Below are positions 1-30,120 of a DNA stretch of 30,120 nucleotides, piece by piece. The stretch is from positions 1 through 30,120 of the IMG/VR virus record IMGVR_UViG_3300042523_000876. One strand, 5' to 3'. The notes below the pieces were generated by a model. It was not told the origin of the DNA. It did no database searches and was given only the letters and a program-made list of their open reading frames with translations. A program made the translations under genes and the position numbers. This DNA comes from a virus. Position 1 is the first letter of the stretch, and each line of letters opens with the position of its first letter.

Positions 1-129
1 CGTGCCGCCAGCTACAGTGCTAATGATGCTGCCTGAGTTATTGGCAGCATTATGAGCGCCACCGTTTCCACCGTTAGCGGGTGTAGTAAAGCTGCCTGCA
101 GCACCTGCCCCGCCCCCGCCCCCGGTAGG
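1..129. repeat. Left copy of the 129-bp terminal duplication (circular closure)
   Basis: Bases 1-129 match 29992-30120 apart from position 127 (A here, C at 30118). On the coding strand the mismatch changes a third codon position, CCT versus CCG, both proline. The reading frame of the fibre gene is conserved through the join. The simplest reading is a circular or circularly permuted genome whose assembly ends overlap. A true direct terminal repeat cutting a fibre gene is less likely. Confidence 0.9.
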
Positions 130-7320: not shown

Positions 7321-7338
7321 TAGCTGGGCAGGATAGGG

Positions 7339-7423
7339 TAGAGGGGAGGGGATTTGAACCCCTGAGGGTGTTACCCCTACCCGCCTAGCAAACGGGCGCA
7401 TTAAGCCACTCTGCCACCCCTCT
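7339..7423 (-). tRNA. tRNA-Ser (anticodon GCU, reads AGC/AGU)
   Basis: A full class II cloverleaf on the minus strand: acceptor AGAGGGG (7417-7423) pairs with CCCCTCT (7340-7346); the anticodon stem CCCGT/GCGGG closes the loop TTGCTAG; the long variable arm folds as GGGT-AAC-ACCC; the T arm is AGGGG-TTCAAAT-CCCCT. The discriminator is A and no CCA is encoded. It starts 14 bases after the tail-assembly stop codon, inside the late operon. AGC is a common serine codon in these genes, so a boost to AGC/AGU decoding is plausible. Confidence 0.95.
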
Positions 7424-7436
7424 ATTATCCCTATCC

Positions 7437-12704: not shown

Positions 12705-14195
12705 TTATTCAGTGTCAGGCTGGTTAGCAGGCTGCTGGGTTTCCATACCCTGCATAGCAACCTCAGCAGCGGTAGGCTTACCCTGACCGTCCTGCAGCCA
12801 ATTAAACCCGGGCTTATAAAGCATCCAAACGGGGATGCCCTCAGCCTTAGCCAGATCTACAATAAAGCGGAAGTCCTTAGCGCGCTTGCTCATTTCAGTC
12901 CTAAGATCCAGACCGCGCTGAGCGTAAAGCTCAGACATAGAGAGCAGACCCAGCTCTAGGTCAGCCCGGTCATTAGCCGCTTCCCGTCCAGCGTCTACGG
13001 TGATGCGCTTAGGGGTAGTCCAGCTGACAGCGGTAAAGTCACCGTCAGGCAGCTCCCCGTTGTCAATGGCTGTGCCAATAACGAAAGCCCAGACGGGCAA
13101 GCAAAGCTTCTCTATCAGAATAGCCTGATCCCGGCTAAAGCTGCGGTCAGCTTTGCTGGCAATCAGCCTCAGTCCTGCACCCCCCGCAGACCCGGGCGCG
13201 CTGGTAAACTCATAGGGCAATCCAGACCCGCGCGCTATGTCGCGCTGCACAGCCTCTAGGAAACCCGTAAAGGTAGGGCTGGGACGGTTAGAGGCTAGGC
13301 TGGTCAGGCTCTCGCCCGGTTCAAGCGCCAGCAGCTTACCGCCCATACGGGACGCAGTGGTTTCTAGGCTACCAGATCCAGCGCCCTGCAGCTCAGTCTT
13401 AAGGTTAGTGGGGATGAAACCGCCTGCCTTATTCAGCACCCGGGTTACGTCAGCGTCATTCCTGACAGCCAACATTTCCAGCTTTAGCAGCTCATCCTCT
13501 GATTGAATGTCCCCCCAGCTATGCTGCAGCAGGGGCAAGCCCCGGCTACCGCTGCAATAGTCCTGCTCTAGAATGTGGCAGACAGAGTTAGCCGGGACGG
13601 GCTTGCTGCTATTGTCACCCTGAATGACGTTAACGGAAACTACCCGCCCCTGACGGTCAAAGCTGATACCGTCCAGCATACCGCTAGGCACAGGCGCGTT
13701 AACCGGGTTACCTACCCGGTGGCTTTCCACCATTTGCACCTTAGGCTTACCGTCTTCCAAAACCTTCAAAACGAAAAAGTCCCCGTCCCGCTTCCAGCCC
13801 CGTTCACAAATCCGCAGCACTTCTGTAAAGCTGAAGCGCCCGGTAGAGTCGCAGGTGCGCGCCCAAGCCATAAAGTAAGCTTCATACTGCGCGGCTACAT
13901 CAGTGCGCGCTTCGTGGCTCTGGGGGGTAAACCCGTCCCCGCAGACATAGGTAACGTAGTCGTTAAGGATCTGCCGGACTAGTCCGCAGTTACGCTCCCC
14001 GTGGCGCAGCCGCTTAATCATTTCCACCCGGTCAGTGGGGGTGTAGTCTACGCTAAAGTCAGCGGCTGTCCCGTAGATCCGCGCGCGGTTAGAGCTAAAG
14101 CCTACGCTCTGGAATTGAGCAGACCCAGCTAGCTGCCGCTTCTTATTCCCGGTAGCTTTGATTTCACCAGCCTTAGGGGTTTTGTCTTTAGCCAT
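12705..14195 (-). CDS. Portal protein, lambda family
   Basis: 496 residues. Features of the lambda-type portal family: an N-terminal YTPTDRVEMIKRLRHGERNC segment near residue 50, a CERGWKRDGDFFVLKV stretch near 128-143, VESHRVGNP, a SRGLPLLQH motif near 213, and a RGSGLPYEFTS segment near 318. The C-terminus is flexible (Gln/Pro-rich). The twelve-subunit portal forms the DNA entry vertex and binds terminase. The ATG lies 5 bases from the stop of the gpW-like gene. Confidence 0.92.
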   Translation of the reverse strand: MAKDKTPKAGEIKATGNKKRQLAGSAQFQSVGFSSNRARIYGTAADFSVDYTPTDRVEMIKRLRHGERNCGLVRQILNDYVTYVCGDGFTPQSHEARTDVAAQYEAYFMAWARTCDSTGRFSFTEVLRICERGWKRDGDFFVLKVLEDGKPKVQMVESHRVGNPVNAPVPSGMLDGISFDRQGRVVSVNVIQGDNSSKPVPANSVCHILEQDYCSGSRGLPLLQHSWGDIQSEDELLKLEMLAVRNDADVTRVLNKAGGFIPTNLKTELQGAGSGSLETTASRMGGKLLALEPGESLTSLASNRPSPTFTGFLEAVQRDIARGSGLPYEFTSAPGSAGGAGLRLIASKADRSFSRDQAILIEKLCLPVWAFVIGTAIDNGELPDGDFTAVSWTTPKRITVDAGREAANDRADLELGLLSMSELYAQRGLDLRTEMSKRAKDFRFIVDLAKAEGIPVWMLYKPGFNWLQDGQGKPTAAEVAMQGMETQQPANQPDTE

Positions 14196-14200
14196 AAAGG

Positions 14201-14458
14201 TTAGTCAGCGTAGTTATCCCAATTAGTCCGAATAACCGTAGTGTCTTCAGTCATAGGATAAGCCTCAGGGTCTAGGATGTTAAGACTGTGATTAGCTTCC
14301 TGTAAACGCTCTAGGGCGGGGATAACCTGCTTACCTACGCTAGTGCCTGCAATACTGTAGCTAGTCACTGACGCGCCAGCGGTAACCTCAGCAAGCGCCT
14401 TAGTCCTGATAGCCAGCAGCTCAGGGATACTACACCCGTTGAAAATACCTTTAGCCAT
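14201..14458 (-). CDS. gpW-like head-tail joining protein
   Basis: 85 residues between terL and portal, exactly where lambda has W (68 residues). It has two helical parts (SIPELLAIRTKALAEVTAG and PALERLQEANHSLNIL) flanking a short polar loop with VTSYSIAGTSVGK, matching the small alpha-beta-alpha fold of gpW. It is a little longer than lambda gpW at its acidic C-terminus. gpW stabilises packaged heads and lets the tail attach. Confidence 0.75.
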   Translation of the reverse strand: MAKGIFNGCSIPELLAIRTKALAEVTAGASVTSYSIAGTSVGKQVIPALERLQEANHSLNILDPEAYPMTEDTTVIRTNWDNYAD

Positions 14459-14480
14459 TTGTTATGCAGCTTAGGTCAAA
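14449..14480 (-). repeat. 32-bp direct repeat with junction motif, copy B
   Basis: Identical over 32 bases to 11779-11810, covering the motif TTTGACCTAAGCTGCATAAC and the start of the gpW-like gene. It follows directly on the dyad-closed element at 14486-14561. Confidence 0.85.
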
Positions 14481-14485
14481 GGTGG

Positions 14486-14561
14486 GCGCAGCCTAGCCAT
14501 TACCCCACAACGGGAAACTGCGACCCCACAGCTTCCTTTAAGCATCATAACTAGGCTGCGC
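14486..14561 (-). ncRNA. Candidate structured RNA element between terL and the gpW-like gene
   Basis: A perfect 11-bp helix, GCGCAGCCTAG (14551-14561 as read on the minus strand) with CTAGGCTGCGC (14486-14496), encloses 54 bases. Inside is an 8-bp hairpin, GGAAGCTG and CAGTTTCC with the loop TGGGGTCG; one pair is G-U, which is a mismatch on the opposite strand, so the fold favours a minus-strand RNA. TGTGGGGT occurs twice in the interior. There is no U tract, so it is not a standard terminator. Leader, processing site or DNA site are all possible. Confidence 0.5.
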
Positions 14562-14568
14562 TTAAGAA

Positions 14569-16422
14569 TTAGTTACCCGTTTCCCCGGGGCTGTCAACGG
14601 GCTTCCCCTTGTCTGCCGTAGTCTCAGTGGCTTCCCTGCCTATGATGCCCCAGCGCACAGCCAATACCAGACCCATCAGCGCGCAGTCCCAGCTGTGATT
14701 ACCGCAGGTCTTCCCGGCTGGAAGTATCCACTGACTTTTTCCTGTGCGGCTGTCCCTTACCCTGATCTCAGCGGTAAGCTGTTGGACATACTCAGCGCTA
14801 GTGTTCCGGGCGTAGGTATGCAGCCTGCGCTTCTGCAGACCCGCTAGGAAGTCCTTAGTAGGCAGGTTACCCCATACAATCATTTCAGCCCTGCGCTCTA
14901 CACCGGGAACGAAAATAATTTGTTTATCAGAGTAGAAGCGTTTTGAAGTCCTGCCCCCTACGTCCTGCACCGTAAACTCAGACTGACCGCTACCCCTCAG
15001 AGCTTTCCAGCCGCGCTTAGCGCACTGCTCATAGACTAGCTGGGTCTGGTCACCACAGTCCACCCCTACCAGCGCGCTGTTAATCTGGTGCAGCTTCTGC
15101 AGATCGTCCAGCTGCTCCCAAGTATCCAGCCGCCCAAACCAGCGCAGGCGGCTATGCCCGGTCTTCCCCCAGCTCCTTACTTCTGCCCATAGGTGTCCCC
15201 GCTGAACGTCTGCAGCCAGAGTCCTAAAGGGGACACTGTGCGGGGGTATCCCTGCAGCTGCGTCAGTAATGTTGGCTTCAGGGGTAATGTAAGCTTCCCC
15301 GTCCCAAGCGTCCCCTAGGTCATAATCCCCTGCCTGCGCCTGCGCTACCATTTCACCCCCGTCTTCTGTCCAAGGTTGTGCAAGGCGCTTCTGCTTCCAG
15401 ACCCTGCGCCCTTCTGCATCATTATAGGTTTCGTAACTCTCCTTAGCGCGCAGCAAAGCTACAGCTTCCTTTCCCCAGCTGGTATTACATAGGCAATTCC
15501 AATGCAGCCCCACTGACCCTACGCTGCTGCTCTGGGTTGTGGCTATGAAGCGCGCGCCCCGCTTAGGGTCATTAGCCACAGCCCTAACCCCCGGGCTGTC
15601 CTTTAGCCGGGTGTGGCAGTGGGGACATTCATAGGTTGTTCCAGCCTCTACCCGCTTATAGTCCCAGATCCCATTAACCTTAGCGTCTTCTGGAAACCTC
15701 ACCCCAGACCAATCCCAAGGGCTTAGCTTGTCGCAGCTGGGGCAGGCAAAGTTCCAAGCGCGCTGGTCAGTCCCGTTGTGTATGTTATGAAACTCAGACC
15801 CCTGCCCGTCTAGCGTCCCGCCCTGACTCATCAGGATAACCCGCCCCAGCCAGCTAAAGCTCTGGGTGCGCGCGGCAGCTTCCGCAAGGTGACCCCTAGG
15901 GGCTAGCCAAGCTTCATCTACTAGCACAGTCCGCAGGGTCAGGCGCTGCAGGTTGTTTTCATTCCAGATACCCCTGCAGTAAACCGTAACCCCATTACTG
16001 AAGTCTGCGGTAGTAGACTTGTCATTATCCCCTTCAGCCAGCAGCGCGGCTACCGGGGGGCAGTGCTTCCACAAGGGACGGACATACCGCAGCATAAAGT
16101 CCTTAGCCTCAGGGTCATTAGCCTGCAGGATCATAAACGGGGCAGGCGCGTTAACAATTTGCCAGCAGGAATACAGACGCAGGAACAGGGACTTACCTGA
16201 CTGCGTAGACGCTAGGATAGTCAGCAGCTTAGTCTCAGGATCAGTGGCAATACGCAGAGCCTCAGCTACCCAAGGTGTGCGGCTAAGGTTCAGCTTACCC
16301 CTAATAGGGGAGTCCGGCACTTCCAATACGTTAGCCTCAGCCCAGCTCACAGCGTCCCCGTCATAGCTTGGCTTTAGGATAGCGCGCGCTGCTGCGGTCA
16401 GCTCCCGGTAACGGTCAGTCAC
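14569..16422 (-). CDS. terL: Terminase large subunit, lambda gpA family
   Basis: 617 residues, starting at GTG and overlapping the terS stop by 8 bases. The ATPase domain has a Walker A-like ILASTQSGKS (residues 69-78) and Walker B TVLVDEA (165-171). Two CxxC pairs, CPSC (227-230) and CPHC (266-269), form the zinc-binding insert typical of the gpA family. The nuclease domain shows an RNase H-like TLAADVQRG (401-409), GVDCGD (453-458) and a late Asp in NHSWDCALMG. It cuts concatemers and drives DNA into proheads through the portal. Confidence 0.95.
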   Translation of the reverse strand: MTDRYRELTAAARAILKPSYDGDAVSWAEANVLEVPDSPIRGKLNLSRTPWVAEALRIATDPETKLLTILASTQSGKSLFLRLYSCWQIVNAPAPFMILQANDPEAKDFMLRYVRPLWKHCPPVAALLAEGDNDKSTTADFSNGVTVYCRGIWNENNLQRLTLRTVLVDEAWLAPRGHLAEAAARTQSFSWLGRVILMSQGGTLDGQGSEFHNIHNGTDQRAWNFACPSCDKLSPWDWSGVRFPEDAKVNGIWDYKRVEAGTTYECPHCHTRLKDSPGVRAVANDPKRGARFIATTQSSSVGSVGLHWNCLCNTSWGKEAVALLRAKESYETYNDAEGRRVWKQKRLAQPWTEDGGEMVAQAQAGDYDLGDAWDGEAYITPEANITDAAAGIPPHSVPFRTLAADVQRGHLWAEVRSWGKTGHSRLRWFGRLDTWEQLDDLQKLHQINSALVGVDCGDQTQLVYEQCAKRGWKALRGSGQSEFTVQDVGGRTSKRFYSDKQIIFVPGVERRAEMIVWGNLPTKDFLAGLQKRRLHTYARNTSAEYVQQLTAEIRVRDSRTGKSQWILPAGKTCGNHSWDCALMGLVLAVRWGIIGREATETTADKGKPVDSPGETGN

Positions 16423-17005
16423 TGCTCAGCTCCTTTCTGACCTGCAGCGCCCAGCGGTCTAATACCTTTACCGCTACCTCAGGGCGGTCAGGGTTGCACC
16501 CCTCAGCGCAGTCCAAGCTCAGCTTATCCAGCCGCGCCACAAGCTCAGCAGCCAGCCTGCTGACAATAGCGTTATGTTCCGTAAGCCTAATGTATTCCCG
16601 GGCTTCCAGCGCGCGCCTCTTTTCCTCATCCTCTAGGTAGACTAGGGATTTGAGGCTAGAGTTATAGGCTGACTGAAGCTTACCCTGTGCAGGGTCGTTT
16701 CCTTCAATGGCAGCTAGGTAGACTTCCCGCGCCCGGTTAACTAGCGCCCGGTGCTGCCGTATGGCATCAGTCAGACTGTCAGCTATCAGTGACCTAATCA
16801 CCCCTTGACCCGGCACGGGCTGACCCTCAGCTGCCGGGACTGCTGACGGGCTGGCTACGGGCGGCAGCTTCCTGTGCCTGCCTGCGCGCTTCAGATCCAG
16901 AAAGCTGCGCGCTGCCTCTAGCTCTAATGGCATACCTGCCTTAACTAGTTTGCATACATAGCCCACTGATAGGTTAAGCTCTTTTGCCAGCTGTGCCTGC
17001 GTCAT
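16415..17005 (-). CDS. terS: Terminase small subunit, Nu1-like
   Basis: 196 residues. The N-terminus (TQAQLAKELNLSVGYVCKLV) is a winged helix-turn-helix as in lambda Nu1; a Pro/Arg-rich linker (residues 38-70) leads to a long helical part (72-190) that would oligomerise and bind the large subunit. The ATG follows an A/T-rich leader (AATTAAATG) 27 bases beyond the dyad-closed element 17032-17144, which would be a natural binding site. Its stop is overlapped by the GTG of terL. Confidence 0.88.
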   Translation of the reverse strand: MTQAQLAKELNLSVGYVCKLVKAGMPLELEAARSFLDLKRAGRHRKLPPVASPSAVPAAEGQPVPGQGVIRSLIADSLTDAIRQHRALVNRAREVYLAAIEGNDPAQGKLQSAYNSSLKSLVYLEDEEKRRALEAREYIRLTEHNAIVSRLAAELVARLDKLSLDCAEGCNPDRPEVAVKVLDRWALQVRKELSSD

Positions 17006-17031
17006 TTAATTTGATTGGTTTAGAGTTTTAT

Positions 17032-17144
17032 GACGGCAGCTAGGCGGTCTTAATGCAAATCCCTTGCACCTTAACCTTTCCTAGCCGCGTTTTGGAGGAA
17101 ATCCCCGTTTTTTGTCGGTGGTGGATGAACCACGCGCTGCCGTC
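17032..17144 (-). other. 113-base dyad-closed element upstream of terS (cos site or structured RNA candidate)
   Basis: Perfect 9-bp inverted repeats GACGGCAGC (17136-17144) and GCTGCCGTC (17032-17040), as read on the minus strand, enclose 95 bases. Inside are a GTGGT-TCATCC-ACCAC hairpin (17118-17133), a TGCAA-GGGAT-TTGCA hairpin, and two mutually exclusive long-range pairings (GCGG/CCGC or TAGG/CCTA). No open frame fits. Being directly upstream of a Nu1-like gene, it is where lambda keeps cos, but structured leader RNA is an equal possibility. Confidence 0.5.
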
Positions 17145-17176
17145 CCCCCTCAAATAGATTTCTTTAGCCACCCTGT

Positions 17177-17755
17177 TTAGGATTGGGGGTTATAATTCTC
17201 AGGCGGTTTAGCTTCAGGATCAGCGCGCAGCGGAAACCAATCGATGCGCTGCACCAGCCCGGGGGCTTTCAGGCTAGCCGCCAGCAGCAGCTTCTTAGCT
17301 CTGACTGATACAGCCTGCTTAGTCAGACCCATACGCTTAGCTAGCTCTAGCTGTGTAGGGGCATCAGGGGTTTGCAGTATAATCCTGATTAAATCAAAGT
17401 GAGCCTGCACTGCCTTGTCAGGTGAAGCGCCCAGCATAGTCAGCAGATCACTGACAACCTCTAGCAGTCTCTCCCGGGTAACCCAGCTGTCAGTTTCAGT
17501 CTGAGCTTCCAGCCTGCGGGGGTCTGCCGTGCTAAAAGCGCTGTCATTTTCATACACAGGGAAAATGTTACGCGGCTGGGGCAGCTCCCGGTAGGGCAGC
17601 AACGGTGGATCTAGCGCGCGCAGCTCAGCCTGCTTATCAGCTGGCAGGCTAAAATAATAATTATCAAACGCTTTTTCTTCCTCAGTAAGCTCATTACCCT
17701 CCCTAAGCTGCTGCTGGTGGGCTTTAGTGCGAAAATTAGAGCGTATAGACCCCAC
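17177..17755 (-). CDS. Helix-turn-helix regulator candidate
   Basis: About 192 residues from a GTG at 17753-17755; no ATG is available near the front. A TTG at 17791 is in frame but lies inside the iteron array, so I prefer the GTG. The C-terminal third carries APTQLELAKRMGLTKQAVSV, a clear helix-turn-helix like those of sigma and MarR-type regulators; the first half is charged and lacks a known domain. The gene is the last before terS, so a control of late transcription or of the nearby repeats (17790-17854) is plausible. Not an identifiable sigma factor. Confidence 0.65.
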   Translation of the reverse strand: MGSIRSNFRTKAHQQQLREGNELTEEEKAFDNYYFSLPADKQAELRALDPPLLPYRELPQPRNIFPVYENDSAFSTADPRRLEAQTETDSWVTRERLLEVVSDLLTMLGASPDKAVQAHFDLIRIILQTPDAPTQLELAKRMGLTKQAVSVRAKKLLLAASLKAPGLVQRIDWFPLRADPEAKPPENYNPQS

Positions 17756-17787
17756 TTTAATAGCGTTAATTACTATTAAAGTTAGGG

Positions 17788-17856
17788 TCAATCTAACAAT
17801 TTTACTAAGGTTTAGCCTTAATCTAACAACTTTAGGATTAATCTAACAACTTTACC
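17788..17856 (-). repeat. Three phased direct repeats (iteron-like)
   Basis: TTGTTAGATT(A/G)A, preceded by AA(A/G), occurs three times on the minus strand, with the plus-strand core AATCTAACAA starting at 17790, 17820 and 17840. Spacings of 30 and 20 bases are whole helical turns, so a protein could bind all on one face. The right-hand copy encodes the last codons and stop (Lys-Leu-Leu-Asp-stop) of the 110-aa gene. The array is the leader of the helix-turn-helix gene: operator or part of an origin. Confidence 0.7.
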
Positions 17857-18170
17857 CAGACTTTAGCGCTCTGGTCATACCTTAGCAGCCCATACCTGAC
17901 AGCGTAGACGCGCAGCCTATGCAGGCGGTCAGGTGTGGCAGCTACTCCTGCTAGCTCACAGGCTGCAGTCATTAGCTCCTTAGATCTGCTGGCAGGGAAT
18001 GAGTCAGGCAGGTGCTGCGTTATCAGCTTAGCCTTGCGCCTTTTGCTTTGGCTTAGGCTTTTCCTTTTCTCTATGAGCTTGGCTAGGTTGTCAGCCATAG
18101 CCTCAGGCTTAGTCTTCCACTGCCTAGCCCAATGTCTTAGCGCCCTGTATTGTTTCCCTTTATGACTCAT
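17838..18170 (-). CDS. Small basic protein, DNA-binding candidate
   Basis: 110 residues, very basic in residues 1-60 (for example LIEKRKSLSQSKRRKAKLI) with a C-terminal helical part ELMTAACELAGVAATPDRLH followed by RLRVYAVRYGLLRYD, which resembles a winged-helix end. I do not recognise the family. It lies between two non-coding repeat regions, with the G/C dyads upstream and the iterons overlapping its stop, the typical place of an initiator or repressor. The ATG is in the context AAGTATG, following a leader that contains the dyads. Confidence 0.6.
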   Translation of the reverse strand: MSHKGKQYRALRHWARQWKTKPEAMADNLAKLIEKRKSLSQSKRRKAKLITQHLPDSFPASRSKELMTAACELAGVAATPDRLHRLRVYAVRYGLLRYDQSAKVWVKLLD

Positions 18171-18171
18171 A

Positions 18172-18381
18172 CTTACGCTTTCGGGGGCTACGGGGGAGGG
18201 TATAGGGGGTGACCCCCCTATTAGCGTAAGCGTTAAAATAGGGGGTAAGCCCCCTATACATTACCCCTATAGGGGTAATAGGTCTGTGCCAGACATAGGC
18301 TGAGCTAAAAACAGGGGGGTTAGACCCGGGACGGTTTAGGCTGCTGGAAGCCCCTAGGAAGCCCGTAGAGGCTCTTAGGGG
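18172..18381. other. Dyad cluster between helicase and the 110-aa gene (origin or operator candidate)
   Basis: This 269-base gap (18171-18439) has no convincing gene. It contains TAGGGGG-TGAC-CCCCCTA (18203-18220), TAGGGGG-TAAG-CCCCCTA (18239-18256), the perfect 20-bp palindrome ATTACCCCTATAGGGGTAAT (18260-18279), an inverted pair CTTACGCT/AGCGTAAG (18172-18179 and 18223-18230) and a larger hairpin CCCCTA...TAGGGG (18351-18381). A group of near-identical dyads next to the replicative helicase suggests an origin or regulator-binding sites; no U tract marks them as terminators. Confidence 0.6.
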
Positions 18382-18439
18382 TATCAGGGTAAGGGTAGGC
18401 ACGGGAAAAGGCTGCTAGGCTAACGCTAGGGGGTCAGGT

Positions 18440-19771
18440 TCACAGGTCTGCTTTGTCCTCAGGGGGCGGGGCTAGGTTCAGCTCCCACTTAATCTGTCCC
18501 CTAATCTTACTGTGCCTGATCCGTAGGGACTCAGTAAAGCTCCCGGTAGCGTCCACCATACCTGCCCGGTTACCGCGCTTGCCCAGCTTAAGGACAAAGT
18601 GCGGCAGCTCTGGGTCTTCCCTGCGTAAAATGGCTGTGCTTCTAAACCAATTGGCTAGCTCTGCGCTCCCGGTAAAATCGTAGGTGCTGCTCATACTATT
18701 CTGATCTTCCTTCTTACGGGGGGGCTTATTCTGGTGATGCGCGGCTATCAGGGCTACCCCACAGCGCATTAGGCAGGGCTGCAGGATCTGGCGCAGGAAG
18801 TGACTGCAGAAGTCCTGCTTAGATACGTCCCCACCAGCGAACCCTAGCAACGGGTCAACTACCAGCAGGTCTGCGGTATGGGCTTTGCATAGGTCTTCTA
18901 TGAGCTGCCCAAAGGCTTCCCCGGTCTTAATGGCTTCCCGGTAAATGTATACCTGCTGGTCTAGCTGGTCTATGTCAGCTTGGCTGAGGTTCAGGCTGGC
19001 GGTTACATCCTGCCACTGTTCCGCCAAATCATAAGCGTCATTTTCACTTTGCAGCAGGACTACGCGCAGGGGCTTAACGGGCTTCAGTCCCCAGATCTGC
19101 CGCCCTAGGGCAAAGTGAATAATGAGGGTAGTAAGCAGGCTGCTCTTACCCGTGCCTGCCTGACCTGAGAAAAGCAGGCTACCTCCCCGGCACAGCCAGC
19201 GCCTGCCTATGAGGTTATTAGGGTCAGCGTTTCGGTCTACGCTACGCAGGTCTGCCAGCTCAAACTTTTGGGTGCTAGCGCTGCCGGAGCTGGACAGCTG
19301 CAGGGTCTTAGCCTGCGCGGTAAAGCTAGCTACCAGCTCATCAGGGGTGAAAGCCCCGCTAAGCGCCTTGCCCTGCAGCTCCCGGGCAAACCCGATTAAG
19401 TCCCGGGTCTGCTGGTGCTTCAGGATCAGGTCAGCGGCTGGGCGCAGGTTAGGGGAGGGGGCAAATAGCTGGCTACCTAGCTCATTAATGTAGGCTACTC
19501 CCCCTGCGTATTCCAGCTGCAGGTTAGTCCGCAGGTAGTTAGATACGGTCAGCTCATCAGGCTGCTGCCCCAGCTTGGCTACCTCAGTGCAGGCAGTGTA
19601 GATCAGCTGGTGCTTAGGTTCGTAAAAGGCGCGCGGCTGCAGGTTCAGCTCACTGCAGAGCTTAAGGCTGCGCTGGGCTGGGTCAGAGTCCACCAGCAGG
19701 GAAGCCAGCAGGACACGCTCAGCGTCTAGGTCACAGGGCATAGGTGCGCCCGGTGCGTTGTGTTTTGTCAT
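18440..19771 (-). CDS. Replicative DNA helicase, DnaB N-domain with RepA-like ATPase
   Basis: 443 residues. Residues 14-110 match a DnaB N-terminal domain (DLDAERVLLASLLVDSD...), the part that binds primase. Residues 190-400 form a RecA-like ATPase: Walker A FSGQAGTGKSS (201-211), Walker B DLLVVDPL (301-308) and an AAHHQNKP sensor segment (343-350), closest to the RepA/AAA_25 group. The C-terminal part ends in a basic and Pro-rich tail. It would unwind phage DNA at the fork. No separate primase gene is visible. The ATG follows AACCT; a weak TTGACC-18-TTTACA lies upstream (19787-19816). Confidence 0.87.
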   Translation of the reverse strand: MTKHNAPGAPMPCDLDAERVLLASLLVDSDPAQRSLKLCSELNLQPRAFYEPKHQLIYTACTEVAKLGQQPDELTVSNYLRTNLQLEYAGGVAYINELGSQLFAPSPNLRPAADLILKHQQTRDLIGFARELQGKALSGAFTPDELVASFTAQAKTLQLSSSGSASTQKFELADLRSVDRNADPNNLIGRRWLCRGGSLLFSGQAGTGKSSLLTTLIIHFALGRQIWGLKPVKPLRVVLLQSENDAYDLAEQWQDVTASLNLSQADIDQLDQQVYIYREAIKTGEAFGQLIEDLCKAHTADLLVVDPLLGFAGGDVSKQDFCSHFLRQILQPCLMRCGVALIAAHHQNKPPRKKEDQNSMSSTYDFTGSAELANWFRSTAILRREDPELPHFVLKLGKRGNRAGMVDATGSFTESLRIRHSKIRGQIKWELNLAPPPEDKADL

Positions 19772-24029: not shown

Positions 24030-24101
24030 AGCCCCCTACAGGACTTGAACCTGCAGCCTCCTGTTTACAAAACAGGCGCACAGCCATTGTGCTAAGGGGG
24101 C
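24030..24101 (-). tRNA. tRNA-Thr (anticodon UGU, reads ACA and ACG)
   Basis: Complete cloverleaf on the minus strand: acceptor GCCCCCT (24095-24101) with AGGGGGC (24031-24037); anticodon stem CCTGT/ACAGG with loop TTTGTAA; T arm GCAGG-TTCAAGT-CCTGT. The discriminator is U and the CCA end is not encoded. It lies between two early genes, 5 bases from the 80-aa gene stop. Together with tRNA-Ser(GCU) it is one of two phage tRNAs. Confidence 0.95.
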
Positions 24102-29742: not shown

Positions 29743-30120
29743 TTAAAGGTAAGTGATAACGATAACCTGCCCGTTAGCGCCTGTGCCGCCTGTGCCTGAC
29801 GGGAGGTTTGCCCCATTGTCAGAAGCGCCACCCCCGCCACCCCCGCCACCCGGGTAGCCACCAGCGCCACCGTTACCGCCAGCTGTGGCAGTGCGGTAGT
29901 AGCCCCCGCCCCCGCCTGTGCCTGCCTTAAACACTTCATTAGTAGCAGACACCCCAGCTGTAGCTTGCACAAGCGTTGTGCCGTTACCGCCCGTGCCGCC
30001 AGCTACAGTGCTAATGATGCTGCCTGAGTTATTGGCAGCATTATGAGCGCCACCGTTTCCACCGTTAGCGGGTGTAGTAAAGCTGCCTGCAGCACCTGCC
30101 CCGCCCCCGCCCCCGGTCGG
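29743..30120 (-). CDS. Tail fibre, C-terminal part (glycine-rich tip), continuing from the left edge
   Basis: This is the end of the fibre gene that begins at 1503. Bases 29992-30120 duplicate 1-129, so the new coding part is 29743-29991 (82 residues and a TAA stop). It is dominated by Gly runs broken by short Tyr, Arg and Asn segments (for example GGGGGYYRTATAGGNGGAGG) and ends in a hydrophobic strand, QVIVITYL. Glycine-rich tips of this kind resemble the polyglycine sandwich tips known from some phage adhesins and usually carry receptor specificity; that role is inferred. The next gene starts 5 bases downstream. Confidence 0.85.
   Translation of the reverse strand, partial: PTGGGGGAGAAGSFTTPANGGNGGAHNAANNSGSIISTVAGGTGGNGTTLVQATAGVSATNEVFKAGTGGGGGYYRTATAGGNGGAGGYPGGGGGGGGASDNGANLPSGTGGTGANGQVIVITYL
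29992..30120. repeat. Right copy of the 129-bp terminal duplication
   Basis: Second copy of the sequence at 1-129 with a single difference at 30118. When the two are merged the genome is about 29,991 bp. Confidence 0.9.

Follow-up and report, generated by a model that had tools for sequence, protein, structure and literature searches.

The stretch of viral DNA analysed here (hereafter the window) is the 30,120-nucleotide IMG/VR record IMGVR_UViG_3300042523_000876. Positions 17032-17144 form an intergenic interval between a gene coding for an HTH protein (17177-17791, weak MarR_2/HTH_24 matches just under the curated cut-offs) and terS (16415-17005), which codes for the terminase small subunit (phrog_57, E 5.9e-7). 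The genes here lie on the - strand, and the interval is thus located directly upstream of terS, as the initial annotation had stated. On the same strand, terL (14569-16422) codes for a gpA-type large subunit with ATPase and nuclease domains (PF05876, E 1.4e-27; PF20454, E 3.7e-13), and the order terS, gpA-type terL, lambda-family portal is that of lambda. A Nu1-like TerS and a gpA-like TerL next to the site (phrog_57; GpA_ATPase and GpA_nuclease) are the neighbours expected of a lambda-type cos. TerL is of the gpA type, in line with the initial annotation, whereas the likeness of TerS to lambda Nu1 is weak (profile match by hhalign, E 0.0011, probability 20%). Neither the TerS nor the TerL profile retrieved a credible relative from the PDB. 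The first and last 129 bp of the window (1-129 and 29992-30120) match one another with a single mismatch; the window is a circularly closing assembly of approximately 29,991 bp with cos internal, a form consistent with reads from intracellular DNA that was circular or concatemeric. It also carries genes for tRNA-Ser(GCT) and tRNA-Thr(TGT), at 7336-7424 and 24030-24101.

Searches of IMG/VR with TerS and TerL recovered more than 60 related loci, and contigs covering the right side were gathered by a search with the upstream HTH protein. Approximately 35 contigs of this terminase family have assembled ends at fixed single nucleotides. On the left, 15 contigs from different samples begin at an identical first base, at GCG^TGG (L007, L017, L024/L021, L026, L030, L031, L032, L034, L036, L040, L041, L044, L058, L160 and L162), with AGG in place of TGG in L040 and L041. 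On the right, 20 contigs stop exactly 11 or 12 nt past the left-end position, after ...CAC. Examples of 12-nt right ends are ...GGGCG TGGGCACTCCAC, ...GCGCG TGGGTCATCCAC and ...GGCG TGGCTTGACCAC, and examples of 11-nt right ends are ...CGCG TGGCTGGACAC and ...GCGCG AGGGGCGACAC; the overhang sequences are common to left and right ends. If ends fell uniformly within ±60 nt (121 positions), the binomial probability of this clustering would be approximately 1e-26 for the left and 1e-36 for the right ends, values to be read as orders of magnitude only given that the ends were sorted manually and that contigs related to one another do not count as independent observations. Like PhageTerm and PhageTermVirome, this approach reads physical ends from fixed termini of reads or contigs; it differs in taking them from assembled public contigs of many related phages, with no reads involved.

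In two contigs that represent complete linear genomes (31.3 and 30.7 kb), the 12 nt at the start recur at the end. The first (G001, 31,259 bp) starts with TGGGTCATCCACCACC and ends with ...GCGTGGGTCATCCAC, its 12-nt end being TGGGTCATCCAC; the second (G002, 30,743 bp) has TGGGCCACGCAC at its start and end. In a third genome (G004, 28,808 bp), both ends fall within cosN with the tips trimmed. One further contig, L107, still carries an Illumina adapter at its physical end, where ...GCGTGGCGCAGCAC is followed directly by the adapter sequence AGATCGGAAGAGC..., the last 17 bases of the contig, as expected if the library adapter had been joined to a filled-in natural end. End repair keeps 5' overhangs, whereas 3' overhangs would be lost; the retention of the overlap at both ends thus points to a 5' polarity.

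Unique and fixed ends on both sides of a single site near terS, as found in the relatives and transferred to the window by homology, are typical of a lambda-type cos, and so is a short complementary overhang of 11-12 nt, here presumably single-stranded with 5' polarity. The same contig ends could in principle derive from blunt-ended molecules with an 11-12-bp direct terminal repeat, as assemblies by themselves look alike for a filled-in 5' overhang and a duplex repeat. Duplex terminal repeats in other phages are, however, usually far longer than 11-12 bp, and an overlap of 11-12 nt fits the length made by the gpA-type terminase class. The terminase found here is itself of the gpA type, the class of the lambda enzyme with its staggered nicks 12 bases apart (PMC4669245), and we regard blunt ends as very improbable. 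The interval almost certainly serves as cos in a lambda-type phage whose terminase is of the gpA type, with staggered nicks producing 12-nt 5' cohesive ends. The initial annotation had proposed a packaging start upstream of a Nu1-like terS, a proposal strongly supported by the relatives, whose physical ends fall inside 17032-17144.

The exact ends, the length of the overlap at both ends and the conserved motifs with their spacing are observations made in the relatives, and it is by homology to them that the nicks of the window were placed. Its predicted cosN is the 12-nt 5' cohesive end TGGTTCATCCAC (17121-17132, - strand), bounded by a nick of the - strand at 17133|17132 and a nick of the + strand at 17121|17120. 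An alignment of 14 cos regions revealed that GCGTGG and TCCACCACCG are invariant, and conservation across the interval concerns the DNA sequence of cosN and of the stretch downstream. cosN and its flanks show no variation among the 14 rows, including those in which they are non-coding. No contig end at the site comes from the window's own species or from its nearest relative L002 (TerL identity of 98%); the nearest genome with verified ends is G001, which has TGGGTCATCCAC at the position of the window's cosN and codes for a TerL 70% identical to that of the window.

Three further elements surround the predicted cosN. A box resembling cosQ by its position (AAGAAATCTATT, 17153-17164, - strand) starts 32 nt before the nick. 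Across 56 unique sites, the corresponding box AAGRARTCTMYT begins 32-34 nt ahead of the nick, the distance being 33 nt in 42 of them, although the pattern used to collect the sites demanded part of the box and its internal conservation is therefore overstated. The box is also visible in an unfiltered list of sequences upstream of terS, and the window contains 2 matches to it compared to 0.08 expected. In lambda, cosQ is needed together with cosN to end packaging (PMC9026076). On the other side of the nick, an A-tract (CAAAAAAC, 17107-17114, - strand) occupies bp 19-26 of the left end, with AAAAAAC invariant in the 14-row alignment; it may serve in DNA bending. Further inward, at bp 52-56 of the left end, GGAAA belongs to a candidate R3-like TerS site (CTAGGAAAGG, 17075-17084, - strand). 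GAAA lies at a fixed distance from cosN in all 14 aligned rows and is preceded by the first G in 13 of them. Its position is reminiscent of that of lambda R3, located at bp 50-65, whose distance to cosN is critical (PMC9026076).

The initial annotation had also described the 113-nt interval as an element closed by a perfect 9-bp inverted repeat, possibly a riboswitch-like leader of terS or a non-coding RNA in which the 9-bp helix would close alternative internal folds. The repeat is present (GACGGCAGC/GCTGCCGTC at 17032-17040 and 17136-17144), and so are the internal dyads GTGGT-N6-ACCAC and TGCAA-N5-TTGCA; moreover, the predicted fold of the window sequence, taken singly, is more stable than that of shuffled sequences (z of -2.5 on the + strand and -3.9 on the - strand). 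However, perfect inverted repeats of 9 bp or more with spacers up to 130 number 24 in the window, compared to a mean of 11.7 in shuffles, and a 9-bp dyad alone is thus weak evidence. We examined the helix by perfect-repeat counts, comparison of the best complement with shuffles, pair counting and RNAalifold, and found support confined to the window sequence. The upstream arm (17136-17144, - strand), beside cosN, sits in variable columns of the alignment, whereas the downstream arm (17032-17040, - strand) is held in an insert of approximately 39 nt found only in the window and L002 among the 14 aligned rows. In L002 the arms read GCTGGAGGG and CAAACCCTC and have lost their complementarity, and the helix is missing from all 13 aligned relatives, L002 included. 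Pair counts for the helix did not exceed those of shuffles, both arms being present in two sequences only, and RNAalifold retained four pairs, all within the conserved cosN, with zero compensatory changes. The equivalent segment of L002 (z of +0.49) and those of three other relatives (+0.66, -1.12 and -0.08) fold no better than shuffles, and no described RNA family in Rfam matches the element.

Given that neither helix conservation, nor covariation, nor an Rfam match was found, and that one arm lies in an insert restricted to the window and L002, we reject the RNA readings, to which we leave only a minimal probability. Neither arm appears functional as part of a helix; the two would be separated on the mature chromosome, one at each end, and by this comparison of sequences the large folded element appears to be a product of chance that relatives do not keep. 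The initial annotation was therefore right about the location and mistaken about the structural reason given for it.

The HTH gene is the rightmost gene of the mature chromosome, and its homologues flank cos in related contigs. In most relatives with 12-nt overhangs (L023, L027, L047, L081, L082 and others), its reading frame crosses cosN and stops 31-103 nt beyond the nick, so that the two parts of the gene lie at the two chromosome ends and are joined only once the chromosome circularises. The reading frame closes earlier in the window and L002, 46-47 nt short of the nick, and also ahead of the nick in nearly all 11-nt lineages checked. That the frame crosses cosN in so many relatives might suggest that the conserved block is the coding 3' end of this gene and not a signal in the DNA, a reading to which we give next to no credence as cosN is equally conserved where the gene stops before the nick (the window, L002 and nearly all 11-nt lineages checked) and coding does not explain contigs that end at single bases. 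Seven relatives (L036, L044, L048, L049, L051, L058 and L062) carry an additional gene, roughly 500 nt long, between cos and terS; cosN persists in these, either where the contig begins or upstream of the inserted gene.

On a tree of TerL, the distribution of 11- and 12-nt overhangs requires four changes, three of which are forced by well-supported branches, some of the length labels having been read from the CAC motif only. When only lineages with observed right ends are considered, our reading of the tree still gives at least two changes. Length switches are seen among the L030-L047 group, L033/L034, L014-L019, L044-L064 and L029/L040/L041, with the outer half-sites conserved; L033/L034 differ in length from L030 despite very close TerLs, the lengths there being inferred from the CAC motif. 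Taken together, we think it reasonably probable that this is a lambda-type cos with a code of its own, made up of a new cosQ-like box and of GCG^TGG and CAC half-sites, in which the distance between the nicks changed from 11 to 12 nt or back on at least two occasions in a single terminase family and through which, in many relatives, the last gene runs and is made whole only upon circularisation.

The layout invites comparison with lambda, whose cos likewise lies just upstream of terS, has a 12-nt 5' overhang and is served by a gpA-type TerL. Lambda cosQ begins 30 nt before the nick compared to 32 nt for the window box, and lambda R3 lies at bp 50-65 (PMC9026076) compared to bp ~52 for the candidate TerS site. 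In contrast, no subsite matches that of lambda in sequence, whether at cosN (GGGCGGCGACCT in lambda, TGGTTCATCCAC in the window) or at cosQ (GGGTCCT in lambda, AAGAAATCTATT at the corresponding place), and neither R1/R2 repeats nor an IHF site was recognised in the window cos. Lambda-like phages have been defined by the identity of their cohesive ends and share a conserved 7-bp cosQ, GGGTCCT (PMC4669245), which the window lacks; that group has 12-base ends (PMC4669245), whereas the relatives of the window also use 11-nt overhangs. In function, the window cos appears to be of the lambda type, yet its cohesive ends place it outside the group that is called lambda-like on the basis of their identity. 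It also resembles the simple cos of N15, a compact site in which terS follows shortly after the only R-like site, located near bp 50. The start of terS at bp 128 in the window is nearer to that of N15 (bp 89, PMC9026076) than to that of lambda Nu1 (bp 191), and terS starts at bp 76-128 in this family where no gene is inserted. The cohesive-end sequence of N15 is unrelated to that of the window.

Beyond the positions of the ends, the mechanism that we propose follows from what is established for lambda. TerS would bind a cosB-like stretch, with the GGAAA site at bp ~52 as candidate, and position TerL. TerL would then nick cosN twice, on the - strand at GCG^TGG (17133|17132) and 12 nt away on the + strand (17121|17120), leaving 12-nt 5' cohesive ends, TGGTTCATCCAC. 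The terS-side end would presumably enter the prohead first, and packaging would stop at the next cos on the concatemer, which would be cut. The role of lambda cosQ would probably fall to the box that starts 32 nt ahead of the nick.

As for the host, the only terminase relatives recovered from a bacterial genome collection by a scan with the TerL alignment were two loci (L158 and L159) in Opitutales/Opitutae metagenome bins, a single-sequence TerL scan of bacterial genomes having returned nothing. The Verrucomicrobia phage P8625 gave the best E-value among the cultured-phage matches listed. These matches are a hint at Verrucomicrobiota hosts and nothing firmer, as viral contigs can be mis-binned. 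In P8625, a lone copy of the box lies near position 570 and is not accompanied by GCG^TGG; the paper describing this phage does not give its genome ends. The Roseobacter phage CRP-811, a distant TerL match, was set aside, as neither the box, in the stretch searched, nor a cos-like motif upstream of terS was seen. Neither a nucleotide search of 14000-19000 nor a tblastn search with TerS produced a match among phages. We found no prior description of these cos sites in the open-licence literature, although one may have been reported elsewhere.

Public contigs alone were enough to fix the physical termini of the genome in an uncultured phage lineage and to orient its map of approximately 30 kb, and the contig ends held in virus collections can be used as a ready-made map of genome termini. 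The lineage provides a lambda-type cos whose sequence is unrelated to that of lambda, and the occurrence of 11- and 12-nt overhangs between conserved half-sites makes the way in which a terminase measures the spacing of its nicks testable by comparing relatives.
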